IMG/VR virus record: IMGVR_UViG_3300021168_000078 | Location: 1 to 27,101 of that record | From: a virus | Direction: 5' to 3' (one strand) | DNA length: 27,101 bases | Shown: piece after piece, positions 16,801-24,594 of the stretch | Numbering within the stretch: the first letter of the stretch is position 1 | How the letters are laid out: each line of letters starts with the position of its first letter | Position numbers and translations under genes: made by a program | The notes under the pieces: model-generated | Told to the model about the DNA's origin: nothing | The model's database searches: none | The model's input: only the letters and a program-made list of their open reading frames with translations

Positions 16801-17381
16801 ACTTCCCGCTCTCGCCGGAAATCATCGCGGCGATCCTCGGACCCTACGGTCCGTTCGTGAACGTCAGCGCGAACTGGCCGCTGCTCGAGGCGGCTCTCGA
16901 CCGGCGCGGCATCTACTCATCGCTGTGCGCTGTCGCGGCGATCTCGACCGTGGCCATCGAGACGGGGAAGTTTGGTCCAATCAAAGAGCAGGGCGGTCCT
17001 ACGTACCTCACAAATCTGTACGAGAACAGGAAGGACCTCGGCAACACGAATCCCGGCGACGGCGTGCGGTTCCGCGGCCGCGGGTTCGTGCAAATCACCG
17101 GCCGGTCGAACTACGCGCACTTCGGCGCGGAAATCGGGCGGGACCTCGTGGCGAATCCCGATCTCGCGCTCGACCCGGCCGTCGCCGCGGACATCCTGGC
17201 GCTGTTCTTTCACGAGCGCGGCGTCCAGGCGGCCGCGAATCAGGAGAACTGGGAAATGGTCCGGCGCAAAGTGAACGGCGGCCTCACCGGATGGGTCCGC
17301 TTTATCGACACCGTCACGCGGCTCGTGACCGCGGTCAGAAATCCCCCGCCAGCGGCGGGCACTTCACAGGAGGTAACGTAA
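16797..17381 (+). CDS. Endolysin, glycoside hydrolase family 19 (chitinase-like muramidase)
   Basis: The 194-residue single-domain protein has the GH19 hallmarks: 'AAISTVAIETGKF' with the likely general acid Glu55, 'YENRKDLGNTNPGDG' with the second catalytic Glu76, and 'FRGRGFVQITGRSNY' at about 97-110. Phage members of GH19 cut the glycan backbone of peptidoglycan to release virions. No signal peptide or SAR-type N-terminal helix is visible, so export should depend on a holin, and several small membrane proteins are encoded alongside. The last ~10 residues are Pro/Ala-rich. The length is typical of compact phage GH19 endolysins. Confidence 0.9.
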   Translation: MNFPLSPEIIAAILGPYGPFVNVSANWPLLEAALDRRGIYSSLCAVAAISTVAIETGKFGPIKEQGGPTYLTNLYENRKDLGNTNPGDGVRFRGRGFVQITGRSNYAHFGAEIGRDLVANPDLALDPAVAADILALFFHERGVQAAANQENWEMVRRKVNGGLTGWVRFIDTVTRLVTAVRNPPPAAGTSQEVT

Positions 17382-17591
17382 ATGTACATGTTCGTTGTGG
17401 CAGTTCTCTGCCTACTCATTGGAATTGTTGTCGGTTCGGTCTTCCACGCGATCTTGGCGGCCAAGGCGACGGCATCGAAGCAAGAGCTCGAGGCGTTCTC
17501 AGGGCGGCTCAGGGCTGCTTTCGACTCCGATACTCAAACGGCGAAGAACAAGGTCGCCGCAGTCATCGCCGACATCGAAAAGAAACTATGA
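17382..17591 (+). CDS. Small single-pass membrane protein in the lysis cassette (69 aa)
   Basis: The ATG at 17382 follows AGGAGG at 17368-17373 with good spacing and immediately follows the endolysin stop. Residues ~3-25 form a transmembrane helix or signal anchor (MFVVAVLCLLIGIVVGSVF). A charged amphipathic helix to the C-terminus (ASKQELEAFSGRLRAAFD, then KNKVAAVIADIEKKL) follows. It could be a holin-like or antiholin-like protein or a small membrane-anchored spanin partner. There is no lipobox. The family is not recognised. Confidence 0.65.
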   Translation: MYMFVVAVLCLLIGIVVGSVFHAILAAKATASKQELEAFSGRLRAAFDSDTQTAKNKVAAVIADIEKKL

Positions 17592-17848
17592 GCCGCATGG
17601 AGTGGCTCCGAAATATCTCGCACAAGATCCTCCAGGTCACTCACGGGAGATCGACTGCGTTCTTCATCGCGTTCTTCATCTCGGGGCACGTGATGGTTTT
17701 TCTCGGGAAGATGACGCCGGCCTACATCGGGTTCATGGGAACGCTCGGCGGTCTCGTACTCGGGCATTCGATCCAAGAGAACGTGCTCGCGGCGAACTTG
17801 CCAGCGCAGCCAGGAGGACCGGATGCTGACCCTAAGACACAAGCTTGA
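17588..17848 (+). CDS. Candidate holin, two hydrophobic segments (86 aa)
   Basis: The ATG at 17588 overlaps the upstream stop (ATGA). The N-terminus is basic (MSRMEWLRNISHKILQVTHG). Two hydrophobic stretches follow at about residues 24-41 (AFFIAFFISGHVMVFLG) and 45-60 (AYIGFMGTLGGLVLGHS), then a Pro-rich hydrophilic tail. Two-helix topology, small size and adjacency to the endolysin are typical of class II holins. Its 3' end overlaps the next gene by 26 nt. Holin function is inferred; assignment between this and the other small membrane proteins is open. Confidence 0.65.
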   Translation: MSRMEWLRNISHKILQVTHGRSTAFFIAFFISGHVMVFLGKMTPAYIGFMGTLGGLVLGHSIQENVLAANLPAQPGGPDADPKTQA

Positions 17849-18443
17849 AATTGCGGGCGCGCTCATCGCGCTCGTGGTGATCGGCATCATCGGCGGTTCG
17901 TGGATTGGGGCGCGCGAGGAGGGCATCCGTCTGAAGGCGACTCTCGACGCACAGAACTCCGTCATCGCCGAGGCCGGCAAACGGGAGGACGCTCGTGCGG
18001 CGGTTCTCCGGGATTCGCTGGCGCAGCTCGAGGACCTCAAAAAACGCACACAGACGCCGACACAGGTGATTCAGGCGTTGCCTCAGGTACTTCCCCTTCC
18101 CCAACCCATTACGCTCAATCTCCCGGCGGCGCTGGCGCAGGGCAACCCCAATGTCGCGGGGGTCCAACCCGGACAGACCGCCACAATCCCGGCGGCGGAT
18201 TTAAAGCCGCTCTTCGACTTCGCGGCGTCCTGCAAGGAATGCCAGCAGAAAGTTCTGGTACTCCAACAGGACAAAGCCGACGACACGGTGAAGATCGTCG
18301 CACTCACGAAGGAACGCAACGAGGCTGTCACCGCGGCGAAGGGCGGGAGCAAATTGCAGCGGATCAAGAAGGCTGCGGAGTGGCTCGGGATCGGCATCCT
18401 GGCCGGCGCGGCCGCTGTCTGCGGCTCGGGGCACTGCAAGTGA
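17823..18443 (+). CDS. Spanin-like coiled-coil membrane protein (206 aa)
   Basis: The ATG at 17823 has AGGAGG at 17812-17817, inside the preceding gene. One transmembrane helix lies near the N-terminus (about 9-28, EIAGALIALVVIGIIGGSW), followed by a coiled coil (about 30-75). A Pro-rich linker (about 80-105) leads to a Cys-containing helical region (AASCKECQQKVLVLQQDK). A second weakly hydrophobic helix precedes the end (WLGIGILAGAAAVCG). An N-terminal anchor plus periplasmic coiled coil downstream of the endolysin resembles Rz-type inner-membrane spanins. The Pro-rich linker and C-terminal hydrophobic segment are not classic for Rz, so it may be a unimolecular variant or another lysis accessory. 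No nested lipoprotein Rz1 was found. Confidence 0.6.
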   Translation: MLTLRHKLEIAGALIALVVIGIIGGSWIGAREEGIRLKATLDAQNSVIAEAGKREDARAAVLRDSLAQLEDLKKRTQTPTQVIQALPQVLPLPQPITLNLPAALAQGNPNVAGVQPGQTATIPAADLKPLFDFAASCKECQQKVLVLQQDKADDTVKIVALTKERNEAVTAAKGGSKLQRIKKAAEWLGIGILAGAAAVCGSGHCK

Positions 18444-18457
18444 CGTTACCCTCTGGT

Positions 18458-18654
18458 CAACGGTACCTCAGGAGTGACTTAAAGAAGTTAAACTACTGTA
18501 ACTACATGGGTTACGGTACCGACCCTGTACTATTTCTCTTGACACGTCTTCCTGAGTAATAGTAACGTCGGCGACCCTTTCGAAAGAAAGTAGAAAAACT
18601 CAGTAGAAACCGCTGCCCCCTCTTCTCACTTTTCCAGCAACGGTTCCTCTTGAG
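18458..18654 (+). repeat. ACGGTWCC words and imperfect 17-nt direct repeat
   Basis: ACGGTACC occurs at 18460-18467 and 18513-18520, and ACGGTTCC at 18640-18647. The outer two lie in a longer imperfect repeat, CAACGGTACCTCAGGAG (18458-18474) and CAACGGTTCCTCTTGAG (18638-18654), matching at 14 of 17 positions with an offset of 180 nt. Two copies contain the palindrome GGTACC. Recurrence in a short non-coding stretch suggests protein-binding sites. Confidence 0.5.
18539..18566 (+). promoter_or_regulatory. Putative promoter upstream of the recombinase operon
   Basis: A perfect TTGACA (18539-18544) is followed after 16 nt by AGTAAC (18561-18566). The -10 match is poor against the E. coli consensus, but the same TTGAC-N16-NGTAACG layout occurs at 25421-25449. 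Transcription would begin around 18573 and enter the 62-residue ORF and the serine recombinase. Confidence 0.35.
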
Positions 18655-18673
18655 AACAAAGGAGTCAAGGCGA

Positions 18674-18862
18674 ATGGCTTCTCAAACTCAGTCCGGTCTC
18701 ATCGATGCTCTCGTCGAAATCGGCAGAGAGCGGCAGCGAATCCTCACGAACCTGCGAACAGCGTACGAAGCGCACGACCTCGACGGGGTCCTACACTTCG
18801 TGGCGGAAATTGTGGGAGTCGAAGAAAAAATCGAGGAGGCGCCGCGTGAAAAAAGTCATTGA
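18674..18862 (+). CDS. Small helical protein preceding the serine recombinase (62 aa)
   Basis: The ATG at 18674 is chosen over the in-frame TTG at 18650 because AAAGGAG (18658-18664) lies nine bases upstream. The product is a short charged helical protein (GLIDALVEIGRERQRILTNL, then HFVAEIVGVEEKIEEAP). Its 3' end overlaps the recombinase by 17 nt in a different frame, so the two are probably translationally coupled. I do not recognise the family. A small partner such as a recombination directionality factor is possible but unsupported by any motif. Confidence 0.65.
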   Translation: MASQTQSGLIDALVEIGRERQRILTNLRTAYEAHDLDGVLHFVAEIVGVEEKIEEAPREKSH

Positions 18863-20447
18863 GCTCATCCGGGTCTCGACGTCCGAGCAGGCTGCCGAGG
18901 ACCGTGCGAGCATCCCGGCGCAGCGCGCGGTGAACCGCAAGACCGCGGCGGCCTACGGTCTCACGATCTCGAAGTCCATCGAGATGTCGGACGTCTCCGG
19001 GACCGCGGTGCTGCGGACTCCCGAGATGCAGGAACTGCTCCGGCTCATCGAGGCTCCCGATATCAAAGGCGTGGTGGTGCGCGAGTTCTCCCGCGTCATG
19101 CGTCCCGATAACTTCGGCGACTACGTGCTGTTCCAAGTTTTCCAGGACACCGGCACTTTGCTGTATCTTCCAGATGGGCCGCTGGACTTCAACAGCAAAA
19201 CCGGAAAACTTGTGGCAGGTCTCCGCGCGATCATCTCGGGCAACGAACTTTCGGAAATTCGGGAGCGTGTCTGGACCGCGAAAGAAGAGATGCGCCGCGA
19301 CGGAAAGCACGTGCAGGGCGGCGTCGCGCTCCCGTTCGGCGTGGGCTACTCGAAGGAGCAGGGGTTCTTCTTCAAGCCGGAATCCGAGATGGTCCGCGAC
19401 GCATTCCGCCGGCTGCTCTCCGGCGAAACCAGCTACACGCAACTCGCGAAGCCGCTCGGGTTCACTCCGCAGGGCATGCGGACGCTGTTCACCAATCCCA
19501 TCTACATGGGCTGGCGCGTCTACGACAAAAAACGGAACATGGCGCCGAGTGCGAAGCGCTACTCCGCCGGCGGCCGCCAGGGCGACCGGCCGAAGATCCT
19601 CCGCGATCCCGACGAGGTCATTCGCGTGAAGGTCATCGACACTCCGCTCGTGACCGAGGCGGAATTCCGGCGCGTGCAGGAAATCGTCATGCTGAAGGAC
19701 TCGCACCACTGGCGTCACCGCTCGGGCGTGAAGCACAACTTCACCTACAACGGGTTCCTGCTCTGCAGCGAGTGCGGGTCGACGCTCTACGGGAAGAACG
19801 CCAGCGGCGGCAGCGGGAAGAGACGGCGCATCGCTACCGCTTTCTACTACGGCTGCCGGCGGCGCTTCTGGCACAAAGAGGGGCAGTGCCTGACGCCGTA
19901 CATGCAGCGAGACCGGCTCGAGGAAAAGCTCGACGGCATTTTCACCGAGCGGCTCACGAACCAGGAGTTCCTCACCGGGCTGCTCCGCGATCTCGACGCC
20001 AAGTCCGAGACGGACACGTCGCGCACGCGCATCGCGCGGCTGCAGGCGGAGCTCACGAATCTCCGCGCGAAGCGCAGCCGGGTCCTGGACGCGTTCTTCG
20101 AGGCGGTCCTCACCAAGGCAGAACGCGACCTGCGGCTCGCCGAAATCGACGTGCGACTGAAGAGCACGGAGGAGCTCCTGCTCCGCGAGGCGCCGGTCCA
20201 GAAGGTGTCGCTGCGGTCGCTCATGACCGCGCTGGCTCCGCTGTTTGAGTGGCGGTTCATGAACCGGGAAAGCAAGAGGCGGATTCTGGCGGTGACGGTG
20301 CCCGAGATCCGGGTGTCGAACTACCAGGTGCAGGGGGTCGCGGTGACCTCGCCTAATTTGTGTGGCTATGTTGAAAGCCGCTCCCTAGCGGGTTTCGATT
20401 TAACCACAGGTAGTCCTGCGCGTCTCTGGCTTCCCTTAAATCTCTGA
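18846..20447 (+). CDS. Large serine recombinase (phage integrase, 533 aa)
   Basis: The GTG at 18846 is the start: GAGGAGG lies at 18833-18839 and the protein opens KKVIELIRVSTSEQ with the catalytic Ser at residue 11. The resolvase-type domain continues through 'VVVREFSRVMRPDNFG' to about residue 145. The recombinase domain follows (GVALPFGVGYSKEQGF... LFTNPIYMGWRVYDKK), then a zinc ribbon with C307, C310, C337 and C348. A coiled coil comes next (about 385-440, RIARLQAELTNLRAKRS). This is the domain order of large serine integrases that recombine attP with attB without host factors. Length and motifs look intact. The last ~40 codons are lower in GC than the rest, suggesting a recently acquired or recombined 3' end. 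Confidence 0.92.
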   Translation: MKKVIELIRVSTSEQAAEDRASIPAQRAVNRKTAAAYGLTISKSIEMSDVSGTAVLRTPEMQELLRLIEAPDIKGVVVREFSRVMRPDNFGDYVLFQVFQDTGTLLYLPDGPLDFNSKTGKLVAGLRAIISGNELSEIRERVWTAKEEMRRDGKHVQGGVALPFGVGYSKEQGFFFKPESEMVRDAFRRLLSGETSYTQLAKPLGFTPQGMRTLFTNPIYMGWRVYDKKRNMAPSAKRYSAGGRQGDRPKILRDPDEVIRVKVIDTPLVTEAEFRRVQEIVMLKDSHHWRHRSGVKHNFTYNGFLLCSECGSTLYGKNASGGSGKRRRIATAFYYGCRRRFWHKEGQCLTPYMQRDRLEEKLDGIFTERLTNQEFLTGLLRDLDAKSETDTSRTRIARLQAELTNLRAKRSRVLDAFFEAVLTKAERDLRLAEIDVRLKSTEELLLREAPVQKVSLRSLMTALAPLFEWRFMNRESKRRILAVTVPEIRVSNYQVQGVAVTSPNLCGYVESRSLAGFDLTTGSPARLWLPLNL

Positions 20448-20498
20448 AAACACGCGACTTTGTTGCAGTTAAATCCATGCTCGAAAGGAGAAGTCCCC

Positions 20499-20747
20499 AT
20501 GAAGGAAATCGATGATCTGGTCGCTCAGGTGAAGGCCAGCGATGACGCCGTGGATTCCGCCACGCTTTTGGTGAACGGAGTCGCAGCGCGCATCGATGCG
20601 GCGGTCGCAGCGGCAGCCAGCCTCTCGCCCGCTGACAAGGCGAAACTCGTAGCGCTGTCCGCTGACCTGAAGGCGCACGCCGATCCGCTCGCGGCCGCAG
20701 TAGTCGCGAACACTCCGGCGGCGTCCGGCGCGGCAGCCGGCGCCTAA
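20499..20747 (+). CDS. Small Ala-rich helical protein (82 aa)
   Basis: The ATG at 20499 has AAAGGAG at 20484-20490, so it is preferred over an upstream in-frame TTG at 20460. The product begins MKEIDDLVAQVKASDDAVDS and continues in Ala-rich helices (VAARIDAAVAAAASL), ending in a low-complexity Ala/Gly tail. It resembles small helical phage proteins of unknown role. It has no membrane helix and no DNA-binding motif. It may be transcribed with the recombinase. Confidence 0.7.
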   Translation: MKEIDDLVAQVKASDDAVDSATLLVNGVAARIDAAVAAAASLSPADKAKLVALSADLKAHADPLAAAVVANTPAASGAAAGA

Positions 20748-20770
20748 GTAACCCCCACGAGTGGGCCGCT

Positions 20771-20799
20771 GGCAGACCGTCCCCGAAAAACCGTCTGCC
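20771..20799 (+). other. Hairpin in the leader of the HTH gene
   Basis: GGCAGAC (20771-20777) and GTCTGCC (20793-20799) form a perfect 7-bp stem with a 15-nt loop, nine bases before AGGAGG at 20808-20813. A smaller stem CCCAC/GTGGG lies just upstream (about 20755-20764). There is no T-run, so a translational control or mRNA-stability role is more likely than termination. Confidence 0.4.
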
Positions 20800-20818
20800 G
20801 AAATTTCAGGAGGTCCCC

Positions 20819-21097
20819 ATGCCCAAGAAACTGGAAGGCCAGACGAAGTTCGATCAGTTCGTTCGCGGCTTCGTCGTGGAGGAGCTCGCGCGCCGGCTCG
20901 GCATTCACTCCTCCGCGATCTGGCATTGGATCGACGGCTCCACGTCCCCGCACCCCTCGAACGCGATCAAGATTCAGGCGCTCGCCAAAGAGCGCGGCGT
21001 CGAGCTCTCCCTCGAGGACATCTACGAGCACTCCCGCGCGGTCGGGAGCAAACGGTACCGGCCGCGCTCCCTGAAACCCAAACTCGCGCGCGCCTAA
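20819..21097 (+). CDS. Helix-turn-helix DNA-binding protein (92 aa)
   Basis: The product opens MPKKLEGQTKFDQFVRGFVV. Its core, 'VEELARRLGIHSSAIWHWID', has the spacing of a Cro/CI-family helix-turn-helix (about residues 20-40), followed by a supporting helix (NAIKIQALAKERGVELS) and a basic tail (KRYRPRSLKPKLARA). The small size suits a Cro-like repressor or activator. The gene has a strong AGGAGG with a leader hairpin and its own 71-bp upstream gap, so separate regulation is plausible. Which promoter it controls is not known. Confidence 0.7.
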   Translation: MPKKLEGQTKFDQFVRGFVVEELARRLGIHSSAIWHWIDGSTSPHPSNAIKIQALAKERGVELSLEDIYEHSRAVGSKRYRPRSLKPKLARA

Positions 21098-21147
21098 ACG
21101 CGCTGCGGTCCACCAACACCACTAGTCCGATTCGATGAGGAGGTTAC

Positions 21148-21489
21148 ATGGATACCGAGAAAGTCACTCTCAGCAATTTGTGCGGCGGCGCCGTCGAGGA
21201 ACGCTTTCAGCGGGAGTTCGCTGAGGTCCTCGAGAACATCGGCGACGTCAACACCGACCCGGAAGCGAAGCGGAAAATCACGCTCGAGTTCACGCTCGAG
21301 CCGTTCGAAGACCGCTCCGGCGCGCAGGTGACGTTCGCCTGCAAATCGAAAACGGTTCCGACCACCGCGGTGAAGGGCACGGTCTTCCTGCACCGGCGAG
21401 GCACGGTGCTCGTGGCCATCGCGCACGACCCGCAGCAGATCCGGCTGTTCGACGGGACGTCCGCAAGTGAAAAACCTAAAGCGAACTAG
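21148..21489 (+). CDS. Phage protein resembling 'replication terminator protein' family (113 aa)
   Basis: ATG 21148 follows GAGGAGG at 21136-21142. The product begins MDTEKVTLSNLCGGAVEERF, continues 'EVLENIGDVNTDPEAKRKI' and then TLEFTLEPFEDRSGAQVTFA. From memory this 'N-TDP-AKRK-TLE' pattern is found in small phage proteins that databases label replication terminator proteins, most often in Firmicutes phages. The label has weak experimental support in phages. No catalytic residues are apparent. The gene after it may be its usual partner. Confidence 0.6.
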   Translation: MDTEKVTLSNLCGGAVEERFQREFAEVLENIGDVNTDPEAKRKITLEFTLEPFEDRSGAQVTFACKSKTVPTTAVKGTVFLHRRGTVLVAIAHDPQQIRLFDGTSASEKPKAN

Positions 21490-21541
21490 GGCCTCGGAGG
21501 CCATGTTGAAGCGGTTCGAATCTCTGAAGGAGGGCACAGCA

Positions 21542-22294
21542 ATGAGCACGGATTCCGACTCGATCAATAAAATTCTCTCTCTCTCTCCGCCGAACACTCC
21601 CAAGTTCGGCGATCTCGATTACACCGACAAGCCGCTCACCCTCATCATCCCGCCGGCACCGCAGCCGGTCGCATGCTCGACGCTCGAGGGCCTCGTGGAC
21701 TTGTGGGCCGGGGATCTCGACGACGCGAAGACGAAGGGCGATCTGTTCGTTCACATCACGTCGCCGACCGAGGTCGATCTCATCGCTCGCGAGGCCGACG
21801 AGTACGGCCGGCGCCGCGTGTGGGCGAAAGCGAAGTACCCGGAACTGAAGGGGTTCGCGTTCGGCACCTGGCTGGATCCGGAGACGTTCATCATCACGGC
21901 GCAGCAGCACTTTCAGCGGGTGAAAGTCCAGGCCGACGACGGGTCCTACGTGAAGGACCTCGATTACGTCCTCGACCTCGCCTCGCACATCACCGCGGAG
22001 AACGCCGTGTCGAACGTGGACGACGGGTTCGCGCAGCGCGTCGCCGTGAAGCAGGGCATCGCGCTGAAGGGCGAGGTGACGGTGCGGCCGCTCGTGAACC
22101 TGGCGCCATACCGGACGTTCGCCGAAATCGACCAGGTGCTCTCGATGTTCGTGTTCCGCGCGCGCATCGAGAACGGCAGCGCTCGGCTCGCACTATACGA
22201 AGGCGACGGCGGCCGCTGGAAACTCGGGGCGGTCGCTGCTATCGCGGCCTGGCTCCGGGGGCGAAGTTTCACGGACGTTCCGATCATCGGCTAG
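21542..22294 (+). CDS. Conserved phage protein of unknown function (250 aa)
   Basis: The ATG at 21542 is chosen because AAGGAGGG (21527-21534) is ideally spaced. In-frame starts at 21503 and 21467 have poorer sites and would add an unsupported basic leader. Near the C-terminus is 'RPLVNLAPYRTFAEIDQVLS', then 'VFRARIENGSARLALYEGDG' and 'GRWKLGAVAAIAAWL'. I recall the LAPYRTF...LFEADGG-W-L pattern from uncharacterised phage proteins encoded next to the replication-terminator-like gene, as here. No DNA-binding or enzymatic motif is seen. It probably acts in early or lysogenic phage physiology. Confidence 0.65.
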   Translation: MSTDSDSINKILSLSPPNTPKFGDLDYTDKPLTLIIPPAPQPVACSTLEGLVDLWAGDLDDAKTKGDLFVHITSPTEVDLIAREADEYGRRRVWAKAKYPELKGFAFGTWLDPETFIITAQQHFQRVKVQADDGSYVKDLDYVLDLASHITAENAVSNVDDGFAQRVAVKQGIALKGEVTVRPLVNLAPYRTFAEIDQVLSMFVFRARIENGSARLALYEGDGGRWKLGAVAAIAAWLRGRSFTDVPIIG

Positions 22295-22302
22295 GTCCCC
22301 CC

Positions 22303-23475
22303 ATGGAGAAGATCCGCGGCATCTTCGAGCGGCCGCCCGAGAGCGGCGTGCATTGGATTTCCTACTTCGACACCGAAGGCAAACGCCGGCGGGAGAAGGC
22401 AGGAAAGCTGACGGCGGCGCTCGACATGCTGGCGCAACGCCGGCAGCAGATCAAGAAGGGCGAGTACATCCCTCCGCGGCAAATGCGCGCATGGACGTTC
22501 AAGCAACTAGCCGAGAAAGCGATCAAGCGGAAGGCGCAACGCCTCGCTGAGGGGACCATCGAGACGGACACGATCCGGCTCGGCCAGCTCACGCCGCTCA
22601 TCGGGCACGTGCGCTTTGACCGGCTCACGCCGGAGCGCATCGAGCAAACGCTCGCGACGCTGAAGGAATCCGGTCTCACGAATTCCACGCTGAACCGCTA
22701 CCGCTCGTTCATCTCGAGTGTGTTCAGCTACGCGGAGAAGGCCAACCTGGTGGCCACGAATCCGGTCCGGCGCGTGGAGCGCTACGAGGAGAACGACGCG
22801 CGGACCAGGTGGCTCACGGCGGAAGAAGAGGCGGCGATCAGGAAGGAGCTCGTCGCCGACCAGCACGAGTGGGAGTTCGATCTCGCGCTGCACACCGGAA
22901 TGCGCCGCGGCGAACAGTTTTCCCTGCGCTGGAAAGATGTGGACCTCGAGCACGGGAACCTCACGGTCAAAGGGAAAACAGGTACGCGCGACGTTTCGGC
23001 GAACCCGATCGCGATCGCCGCGCTGAGGAAACTACATGCGATGTCTGGCGAGCGAGAGTTCGTCTGTCCCGACAATGACGGCTCGCAGAAGCGGGACTGG
23101 CGGCAGTGGTTTGAGGACGCCGTGAAAGCCGCCGGCGTGAAGAACGTCCGCCGGCATGATCTTCGCCACACATTTGCTACGCGCCTGGTCGTCGACGAAC
23201 ACGTTGACCTTCGCGTCGTGCAGGAGCTCCTCGGCCATGCGGACATCAGGCAGACCATGAAGTACTCGCATCCGTCGGCCGACCATCGGGCCGCGGCGAC
23301 GGAGAAACTGGCTTTGGCAGTGAACAAAAAGGAGGCAGCGCGTGAAGAGAAAAAAAGGCAAGACCGGGAACCCGGCCAAGAAAAAGAAGCCGGGCAAGAA
23401 GAAACCAGCAGCGAGGAAAGAGCCGCCGGACGCGGACCGCGTCGACGCTCACATCCTAGCTGGCGAGGACGCTGA
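22303..23475 (+). CDS. Tyrosine recombinase / phage integrase (390 aa)
   Basis: ATG 22303 lies eight bases after the preceding stop. The N-terminal ~60 residues form an arm-type binding region (GVHWISYFDTEGKRRREKAG). A SAM-like core-binding domain follows (about 65-165). The catalytic domain has R201 (TGMRRGEQ), K223/K225 in 'LTVKGKTGTRDV', H285 and R288 in 'RRHDLRHTFATR', H312 in 'LLGHADI' and the nucleophile Y321 in 'TMKYSH'. All key residues are present, so it should be active. The segment after ~345 is a long charged low-complexity tail (EEKKRQDREPGQEKEAGQEE) that overlaps another reading frame; part of it may be non-essential. Confidence 0.93.
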   Translation: MEKIRGIFERPPESGVHWISYFDTEGKRRREKAGKLTAALDMLAQRRQQIKKGEYIPPRQMRAWTFKQLAEKAIKRKAQRLAEGTIETDTIRLGQLTPLIGHVRFDRLTPERIEQTLATLKESGLTNSTLNRYRSFISSVFSYAEKANLVATNPVRRVERYEENDARTRWLTAEEEAAIRKELVADQHEWEFDLALHTGMRRGEQFSLRWKDVDLEHGNLTVKGKTGTRDVSANPIAIAALRKLHAMSGEREFVCPDNDGSQKRDWRQWFEDAVKAAGVKNVRRHDLRHTFATRLVVDEHVDLRVVQELLGHADIRQTMKYSHPSADHRAAATEKLALAVNKKEAAREEKKRQDREPGQEKEAGQEETSSEERAAGRGPRRRSHPSWRGR

Positions 23476-23491
23476 GGTCGCGGAGGGCTGA
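23342..23491 (+). CDS. Lys-rich small basic protein overlapping the integrase 3' end (49 aa)
   Basis: The GTG at 23342 has an excellent ribosome site, AAAAAGGAGG (23325-23334), seven bases upstream. The frame differs from the integrase and runs to TGA 23489-23491, which abuts the next gene. The N-terminal half is strongly basic (VKRKKGKTGNPAKKKKPGKK), resembling histone H1-like or nucleic-acid-binding tails. The C-terminal half is acidic (EPPDADRVDAHILAGEDAEV). It has no folded domain that I recognise. It may bind DNA or RNA; the alternative is that only the integrase frame is used. Confidence 0.55.
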   Translation: MKRKKGKTGNPAKKKKPGKKKPAARKEPPDADRVDAHILAGEDAEVAEG

Positions 23492-23755
23492 GTGGCGAAG
23501 TGGGTCAGTTTCAATCTCGAGGAGCGCCGGCGTGGCGCGAGGACCGACGTGTGGCACGTCTGGAATCTGCGAAATCCGCCGTCGCATCTCGGGGTTGTGA
23601 AGTGGTGGACGCCGTGGCGCCGGTACTGTTTTTTCGCCGAGGCGCTCACGGTCTTCGAACAGGACTGTCTGCGGGATCTCGCGCAGTTCGTCGAGCAGCA
23701 GACGGTGCAGCACCGGAAGGGCAAGCGGGCATTCCCGCCGGAAGTGCCGGCATGA
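23492..23755 (+). CDS. Small conserved phage protein (87 aa)
   Basis: The GTG at 23492 directly follows the preceding stop, and its own TGA overlaps the next ATG. The sequence is Trp- and Arg-rich: 'DVWHVWNLRNPPSHLGVVKW', 'WTPWRRYCFFAEALTVFEQD', 'CLRDLAQFVEQQT'. I recall a W-GRWRKYAFFP...VFEQDCLRDIA pattern in small uncharacterised phage proteins, so it is very likely a real gene. The function is unknown. Confidence 0.75.
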   Translation: MAKWVSFNLEERRRGARTDVWHVWNLRNPPSHLGVVKWWTPWRRYCFFAEALTVFEQDCLRDLAQFVEQQTVQHRKGKRAFPPEVPA

Positions 23756-24594
23756 GGGCCGGTTGGGCAAAACCGAAAAAGTGGAAGGCGAAAGATGAAG
23801 CGTACCTGCGTCGATTCTACGCTCGGTTCCCGCTCGACCGGCTCGCGAGGGCCCTCCGACGAACGCCAACGTCGGTGAAGTCCCGAGCGAGCAAGCTGCA
23901 CCTGGACAAGGGCTACAAGCATCGTTTCACGCCGGAGGAAGATGCTCTCATTCGAAGGCTGTACCCGGAACGAGTGACGAAAGATATCGCGAAAGCTCTG
24001 CGGCTGCCGGTCTACTGCATCTACAACCGCGCGCGGCGGCTCGGTCTGAAGAAAGGCGCGGAGCTCATGAGCACGCTGCGCGCGATGTGGAAACAAAAAC
24101 TGCTCGAGAGCGGCGCCGCGTTTCGATTCCGGCCCGGGCTGGTGCCGGCGAACAAGGGACTGCGCCGACCAGGCTATTCAATCGGACGCGGACGGATGCG
24201 CGAGACGCAGTTCAAGAAAGGCCAGCGTTCGCGAAACTACCTGCCCGTCGGAACGATAAGGCCGGATGCAGACGGCTACCTGCGGAAGAAAATCGCGGAC
24301 GGCCCGGGCGGGTTCGGCGCTCCGAAGGTGTGGGAGCTGATACACCGGCGAACGTGGATCGACGCGAACGGTCCCGTGCCGGCGGGGCACGCGGTCGTGT
24401 TCAGGGATTGCAACAAACGAAACTGCGCGCTCGAGAACCTGGAGCTGATCACACGGCGGGAGCTGCGGATCAGGAACAGCATCCACCGGATGTATCCGAG
24501 GGAACTGGCGTCGACGATCCTCGAGGCCGGCGTGCTCAAGAGGCGAATACGGGAGGCGGAGCGTGGCAAAAAACAAAATCGCAGATCTTCGTGA
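23752..24594 (+). CDS. HNH endonuclease with two N-terminal HTH/SANT-like repeats (280 aa)
   Basis: The ATG at 23752 overlaps the upstream stop (ATGA). Residues ~10-52 and ~57-100 are two similar modules (WKAKDEAYLRRFYARFPLDR with TPTSVKSRASKL; FTPEEDALIRRLYPERVTKD with LPVYCIYNRARRLGL). They look like tandem Myb/SANT or sigma-type DNA-binding helices. The C-terminal half carries an HNH_3-type nuclease: H198 in 'VWELIHRRTW', H213 in 'VPAGHAVVF', and 'NCALENLELITR' with N224 and N229. The layout resembles phage-encoded homing or packaging-associated HNH enzymes. It is embedded in an operon of small genes with no intron evident. Confidence 0.85.
   Translation: MRAGWAKPKKWKAKDEAYLRRFYARFPLDRLARALRRTPTSVKSRASKLHLDKGYKHRFTPEEDALIRRLYPERVTKDIAKALRLPVYCIYNRARRLGLKKGAELMSTLRAMWKQKLLESGAAFRFRPGLVPANKGLRRPGYSIGRGRMRETQFKKGQRSRNYLPVGTIRPDADGYLRKKIADGPGGFGAPKVWELIHRRTWIDANGPVPAGHAVVFRDCNKRNCALENLELITRRELRIRNSIHRMYPRELASTILEAGVLKRRIREAERGKKQNRRSS

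Follow-up and report, generated by a model that had tools for sequence, protein, structure and literature searches.

The stretch of DNA considered here (the window) is a 27,101-base IMG/VR fragment, record IMGVR_UViG_3300021168_000078, and covers part of the genome of a temperate siphophage of Acidobacteriota from soil. It encodes two site-specific recombinases on the same strand, a large serine recombinase (LSR; 18846-20447, plus strand) and a tyrosine recombinase (TyrE; 22303-23475, plus strand), with a gap of 1,855 bp between them. A first-pass annotation had described both genes as intact and less than 2 kb apart, and this is borne out by their Pfam and PHROG matches and by the complete R-K-H-R-H-Y set of TyrE. 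LSR (533 aa) matches the Pfam families Resolvase (PF00239, 1.2e-12), Recombinase (PF07508, 5.4e-8) and Zn_ribbon_recom (PF13408, 1.7e-6), all over the cut-offs, as well as the integrase family PHROG 95 (3e-53). Its N-terminal resolvase domain carries the serine nucleophile in an RVST motif, and R9, S11 and R83 do not vary among 8 sequences compared. Approximately 30 related records were drawn from scans of IMG/VR and GTDB contigs, and all were oriented and then searched with the window proteins for gene order. Among separately assembled relatives that share the order LSR, helix-turn-helix gene, early genes, tyrosine recombinase, the LSRs are 55-84% identical, and a ratio of non-synonymous to synonymous substitution (dN/dS) of 0.20-0.36 indicates purifying selection.

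Evidence for the role of LSR came with the localisation of attachment sites in three integrated prophages, G002 (41,368 bp), G014 (42,441 bp) and G005 (39,565 bp, in a Terriglobia metagenome-assembled genome (MAG)), in which attL and attR lie at the LSR gene, the prophages terminating at the 3' end of that gene, and a host site is interrupted. By blastn the right end of G002 corresponds to window positions 17001-20392 and its left end to 20375-20450; for G014 the right end corresponds to 17596-20383 and the left end to 20378-23755. An imperfect palindrome at 20373-20396, GAAAGCCGCTCCCTAGCGGGTTTC, was identified as the core of the phage site, attP, by its match to the attL/attR breakpoints of G002 and G014 and by its palindrome score. 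The LSR gene contains the attP centre (20384/20385), and the central dinucleotide is probably CC (20384-20385). Equivalent palindromes are present at the LSR 3' end in G001, G003 and G026, and a weaker one in G028. When the host flanks of G014 were joined they gave an open frame for an aldo/keto reductase (172 aa around an SPLGxGF motif, Pfam 6e-50); those of G002 gave an aldo/keto reductase frame around the same motif (64 aa, 1.5e-8), and those of G005 a complete 513-aa Mg-chelatase-like YifB/ComM protein (yifB/comM, 1e-96). The host genes of G002 and G014 are of the same kind, and the two prophages face opposite ways in them, with putative central dinucleotides of CC and GG respectively, as the serine-integrase mechanism predicts. 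By analogy the window phage, having CC, would be expected to insert into an aldo/keto reductase gene in the orientation of G002. It carries the rejoined attP intact, which indicates that the window is free or excised phage DNA. All of the junctions found in LSR phages are at LSR and, on sequence grounds, LSR is the integrase of these phages, recombining an attP palindrome of approximately 24 bp, with a short core, with a host site located in a protein-coding gene. The first-pass annotation had considered a second element, nested or remnant, for which borders were to be sought between 20340 and 22303. There is indeed a border in that interval, but it is the phage's own attP (20373-20396), and both sides of it belong to one phage rather than to a separate element.

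The crossover cuts the LSR frame approximately 20 codons before the stop. As attP lies within the 3' coding end of LSR, integration exchanges the last ~20 residues of the protein for host-encoded ones. The codons beyond the crossover in the window (20386-20444, plus strand) encode a C-terminus ending ...AGFDLTTGSPARLWLPLNL, and comparable free-form tails are found in G001 (HAGSLIAEKPDRIFIPLNL), G003 (SADFFTAETRSSIFIPLLL), G029 (LAGFVVADSLPGRIFIPLNL) and G030 (TAHFIAETPSRVYIPLNL). The free-phage tail is a conserved peptide, R[IL][FYW][IL]PLNL. The prophage forms end in PAG (G002), GEVF (G014) and GRDSWPRPA (G005), which are host-derived and unrelated to that peptide. Rejoining the ends of G004 (LSR 50% identical) gave the same result, with a tail ending ...TTAFNLAEPSPSLIYLPI, and the LSRs of G004 and G007, near-identical before the breakpoint, are unrelated beyond it. 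Over the last eight LSR codons, differences at the first, second and third positions are 0.26, 0.13 and 0.51, that is mostly at the third position, whereas the bases after the LSR stop differ by 0.65, 0.65 and 0.68 with no third-position pattern. The ratio of non-synonymous to synonymous polymorphism (pN/pS) of the tail codons is 0.29 in a divergent subset, a value as low being reached in none of 1,000 column shuffles. These figures show translation of the tail and selection on its protein sequence, even though integration removes it.

Two further elements belong to the LSR cassette. A promoter-like element (TTGACA ... CTGAGTAATAGTAACGTC; 18537-18571, plus strand) lies upstream and is conserved in an alignment with four relatives; a pattern of the same kind is also present in G001, G028 and G029. 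A small open reading frame (ORF), p18650 (18650-18862, plus strand, likely starting at ATG 18674), overlaps the start of LSR. It was detected by tblastn directly upstream of LSR in G001, G002, G003, G005, G014, G026, G028, G029 and G033, and was not found in records of the phage family that lack LSR. The protein has no Pfam or PHROG match and could, by its position, be a candidate directionality factor. In a separate record, G009, two ORF pieces (oriented positions 413-682 and 970-1137) end in RIYIPLNL and RIFIPLNL and look like two copies of the attP right arm belonging to the LSR cassette.

Comparison of the oriented records places LSR in a slot within a conserved order: tail genes, lysis module, slot, a helix-turn-helix (HTH) gene, PHROG 997, PHROG 1029 and TyrE. 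The window and eight relatives (G001, G002, G003, G005, G014, G026, G028 and G029) have LSR in the slot together with TyrE; the two PHROG genes are missing from G003, TyrE is covered only in part in G003, G026 and G028, and G033 ends inside LSR. In G015, G019 and G020 the slot is occupied by a second tyrosine recombinase, encoded on the opposite strand, and in G011, G017, G022 and G023 it holds no recombinase. Relatives carrying one enzyme only were also found, namely LSR without TyrE (G004 and G030) and TyrE as the only recombinase found (the four with no recombinase in the slot, and G012). Although such LSR-only and TyrE-only phages exist, both enzymes together are the common state among the close kin of the window, which argues against a transition. 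The earlier proposal that the phage is changing its integration system is not supported, the pair being stable across divergent relatives with both genes under purifying selection. That two recombinases in one phage are uncommon might point to a contig chimera of two elements, or to one gene being a decaying remnant. Such explanations can be given practically no weight: the same gene order recurs in separately assembled records from several sources, so that the contig does not join two elements, and chimerism, nesting and decay are all ruled out by this synteny, by the intactness of LSR and TyrE under selection, and by the even G+C across the recombinase region.

TyrE (390 aa) matches the Pfam families Phage_integrase (1.2e-27) and Phage_int_M (1.3e-8) and the integrase family PHROG 1 (8e-69). 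Its catalytic set is complete (R201, K225, H285, R288, H312 and Y321), and these residues are kept in every row covering the site in an alignment of 20 TyrE sequences, two of them truncated. The dN/dS values for TyrE, 0.23-0.37 in LSR phages and 0.20-0.37 in others, are rough, with synonymous sites near saturation. TyrE is separated from the slot-type tyrosine integrases as a clade of its own (97/93), over which carriage of LSR is scattered, with 7 changes, a number as low being obtained in 345 of 500 shuffles. An AlphaFold model (predicted local distance difference test, pLDDT, 83; predicted template modelling score, pTM, 0.55) shows an N-terminal domain of three strands plus a helix, a predicted arm-binding-like domain, and low confidence for residues 364-390. 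A probable small basic, lysine-rich ORF with a Shine-Dalgarno sequence (23342-23491) overlaps the 3' end of TyrE out of frame, and the C-terminal extension of TyrE may be an effect of this overlap.

One explanation for the retention of TyrE is that it is the ancestral integrase and still provides a working second route, the LSR cassette (p18650, LSR and attP) having been added in the neighbouring slot to become the main one. We regard this as possible but less likely than not. It would account for TyrE as the sole recombinase found in five relatives, and the predicted structure resembles lambda Int over its full length, N-domain included (1z1b was the best Foldseek match, with a TM-score of 0.56-0.62). 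The body of TyrE is also more divergent between close relatives than are its neighbours: DNA identity between the window and G002 is ~0.9 upstream and ~0.6 in TyrE, with a sharp fall at 22150-22300. This divergence could reflect changing target sites. The fall indicates that divergence or replacement of TyrE alleles took place independently of the neighbouring genes, and its sharpness at the TyrE start suggests allele replacement. Against an integrating role, however, there is no attP-sized space adjoining TyrE in most of the phages. In the window the gene is tightly packed, with 8 bp separating it from the gene before it and 16 bp from the ORF after it, and in G011 and G023 it overlaps a downstream methyltransferase-like gene. 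None of the integrated copies found has a junction attributable to TyrE, all those of LSR phages being at LSR, no convincing tRNA-type attP was detected near TyrE in the window, and no convincing cluster of arm-type repeats was seen near TyrE. A sequence at 21513, GGTTCGAATCT, was considered as a tRNA-type site and rejected, having no T-stem. Good tRNA-like sequences near recombinases were found in G010 and G021, where they lie beside other tyrosine integrases; in G021 a slot-type tyrosine integrase (oriented positions 38297-39415) is directly beside a tRNA-Leu gene. The G021 contig also holds further TyrE-related sequences. In G010 a tRNA 3'-end-like fragment (~5518) lies before the HTH gene, and at the right end of the record the final 230 bases resemble the start of another integrase, a further variant of the slot.

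TyrE could alternatively be a replication-linked resolvase that, in the manner of Cre, separates dimers or concatemers formed by the circular genome of the phage. This is in agreement with its retention regardless of the integrase and with its place in an early operon. Upstream in that operon are a PHROG 997 'replication terminator' early protein (21148-21489, plus strand, 8.7e-23) and a PHROG 1029 early protein (21543-22294, plus strand, 1.2e-44; ORF open from GTG 21467), a member of a family found in phage early gene clusters; in Paenibacillus phage Hayley the PHROG 1029 homologue comes after a replication terminator protein in such a cluster. The predicted arm-binding-like N-domain, which is lacking in Cre and Xer, fits this less well, Foldseek places lambda Int and Tn1549 Int above Cre, and no lox-like site was identified. 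No ParA-like partition gene (AAA_31) was found in the ten viral records searched, and a ParA-bearing phage-plasmid was likewise rejected. A resolvase function is on this evidence rather doubtful. More improbable again is that TyrE is a DNA-binding regulator like MrpR (YopR), which in SPbeta accompanies the serine integrase SprA. SPbeta likewise pairs a serine integrase with a protein of tyrosine-recombinase fold in a regulatory/early operon (PMC8612738; PMC10516654), but MrpR has lost most of its catalytic residues whereas TyrE keeps all six; such a regulator is less likely than a second integration route or a resolvase.

Taken together, these data favour a reading, to which we would assign a probability of about 0.8, in which LSR is the integrase, attP within its gene brings about a tail swap, and TyrE is a separate enzyme conserved whatever recombinase occupies the slot; that the tail has an effect and that TyrE has a non-integrating role are the deduced parts of a proposal built from sequence comparison. 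On this reading LSR, which in the free phage is encoded with the conserved tail, recombines attP with a site in a host protein gene, integration replaces the tail by host-derived residues so that the lysogen encodes a changed integrase, and the changed tail is inferred to alter LSR activity or stability in the lysogen. A built-in toggle, as an evolved function common to the tail swaps, is plausible. TyrE would act otherwise than in integrating LSR phages, for example in resolving replication products or as a second or ancestral integration route, and is probably not the integrase of these phages. Of the three readings offered in the first-pass annotation, the use of one enzyme for another task is the best supported for TyrE; inversion and dimer resolution were the examples of such a task given in that annotation. 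A more specific form, in which LSR is self-switching, its tail being needed for attP x attB recombination or blocking excision and lost on integration so that only a different form would be made in the lysogen, while TyrE carries out a second recombination required by the family (resolution or alternative integration), is on balance unlikely. Several points weigh against the favoured reading. No prophage form of the window phage itself was found, so its attB is deduced; every att site comes from metagenome-derived contigs or MAGs; the LSR tail could serve folding or stability alone; and, with no other recombinase found in the TyrE-only phages, TyrE may integrate those.

Of the remaining features, a small alanine-rich protein with no family match (20500-20747, plus strand) and a small HTH protein, Cro/YdaS-like and conserved beside the slot (20819-21097, plus strand; PHROG 35 repressor, 7.6e-6), follow LSR. 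An early gene downstream of TyrE encodes an HNH endonuclease (23752-24594, plus strand; HNH_3, 3.6e-14; PHROG 1891, 7e-53). Upstream of LSR in the window are tail genes and a lysis module, the latter named by sequence motif and position. The contig end (27029-27101) is a short tandem repeat (LALARD codons) and a likely assembly break. PADLOC gave no match. Among 396 Acidobacteriota genomes searched, LSR was present in 3 and a TyrE prophage in G005 only, and among isolated phages no relative of LSR or TyrE exceeded 60% identity.

The one-way control of serine integrases is an open question of practical importance for genome engineering, and the phages described here form a natural family, with att sites mapped for several members, in which integration rewrites the C-terminus of the integrase itself. 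They also indicate, from sequence conservation, that exchange of the integrase cassette in a phage can leave a second, catalytically intact tyrosine recombinase in place. A caution follows against naming 'the integrase' from annotation alone.

LSR is like the phage large serine integrases of phiC31, A118, TP901-1 and SPbeta (SprA/YokA) in domain order, in being phage-borne and in using short attP and attB sites with a small core. The integrases of A118 and TP901-1, and YokA, are its solved relatives by sequence, although identity to the listed isolated-phage integrases is only 20-25%. The window LSR differs from these enzymes in having attP inside its own 3' coding end, with the resulting tail swap, and no description of a serine integrase with this arrangement was found in the open-access literature. 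Streptomyces phage Nanodon was considered as a two-integrase case and rejected. Mx8 IntP is a tyrosine integrase whereas LSR is a large serine integrase, and the LSR tail is a motif conserved across its family. In Myxococcus phage Mx8, attP is within the integrase coding sequence, and the gene acquires a different 3' end when the phage integrates (PMC6070905). This likeness of layout makes Mx8 IntP a precedent for LSR, which is not a member of the same group. In SPbeta, the serine integrase SprA performs both integration and excision, and the tyrosine-recombinase-like YopP and MrpR/YopR are encoded together with an XRE regulator in an operon apart from it (PMC8612738); MrpR is a catalytically dead repressor (PMC10516654). 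The pairing of the two kinds of protein is shared, while TyrE differs in having kept its active site. The title of a paper on SprA, cited in PMC10516654, names an 'extreme C-terminal element' as a potential toggle. TyrE shares R-K-H-R-H-Y with the lambda-type tyrosine integrases but was found with neither an adjoining attP nor prophage junctions. In cluster A mycobacteriophages a single genome position holds alternative cassettes for a tyrosine integrase, a serine integrase or parABS (PMC7157519); the exchangeable slot is alike in the phages considered here, with the difference that a second tyrosine recombinase is retained beside it.

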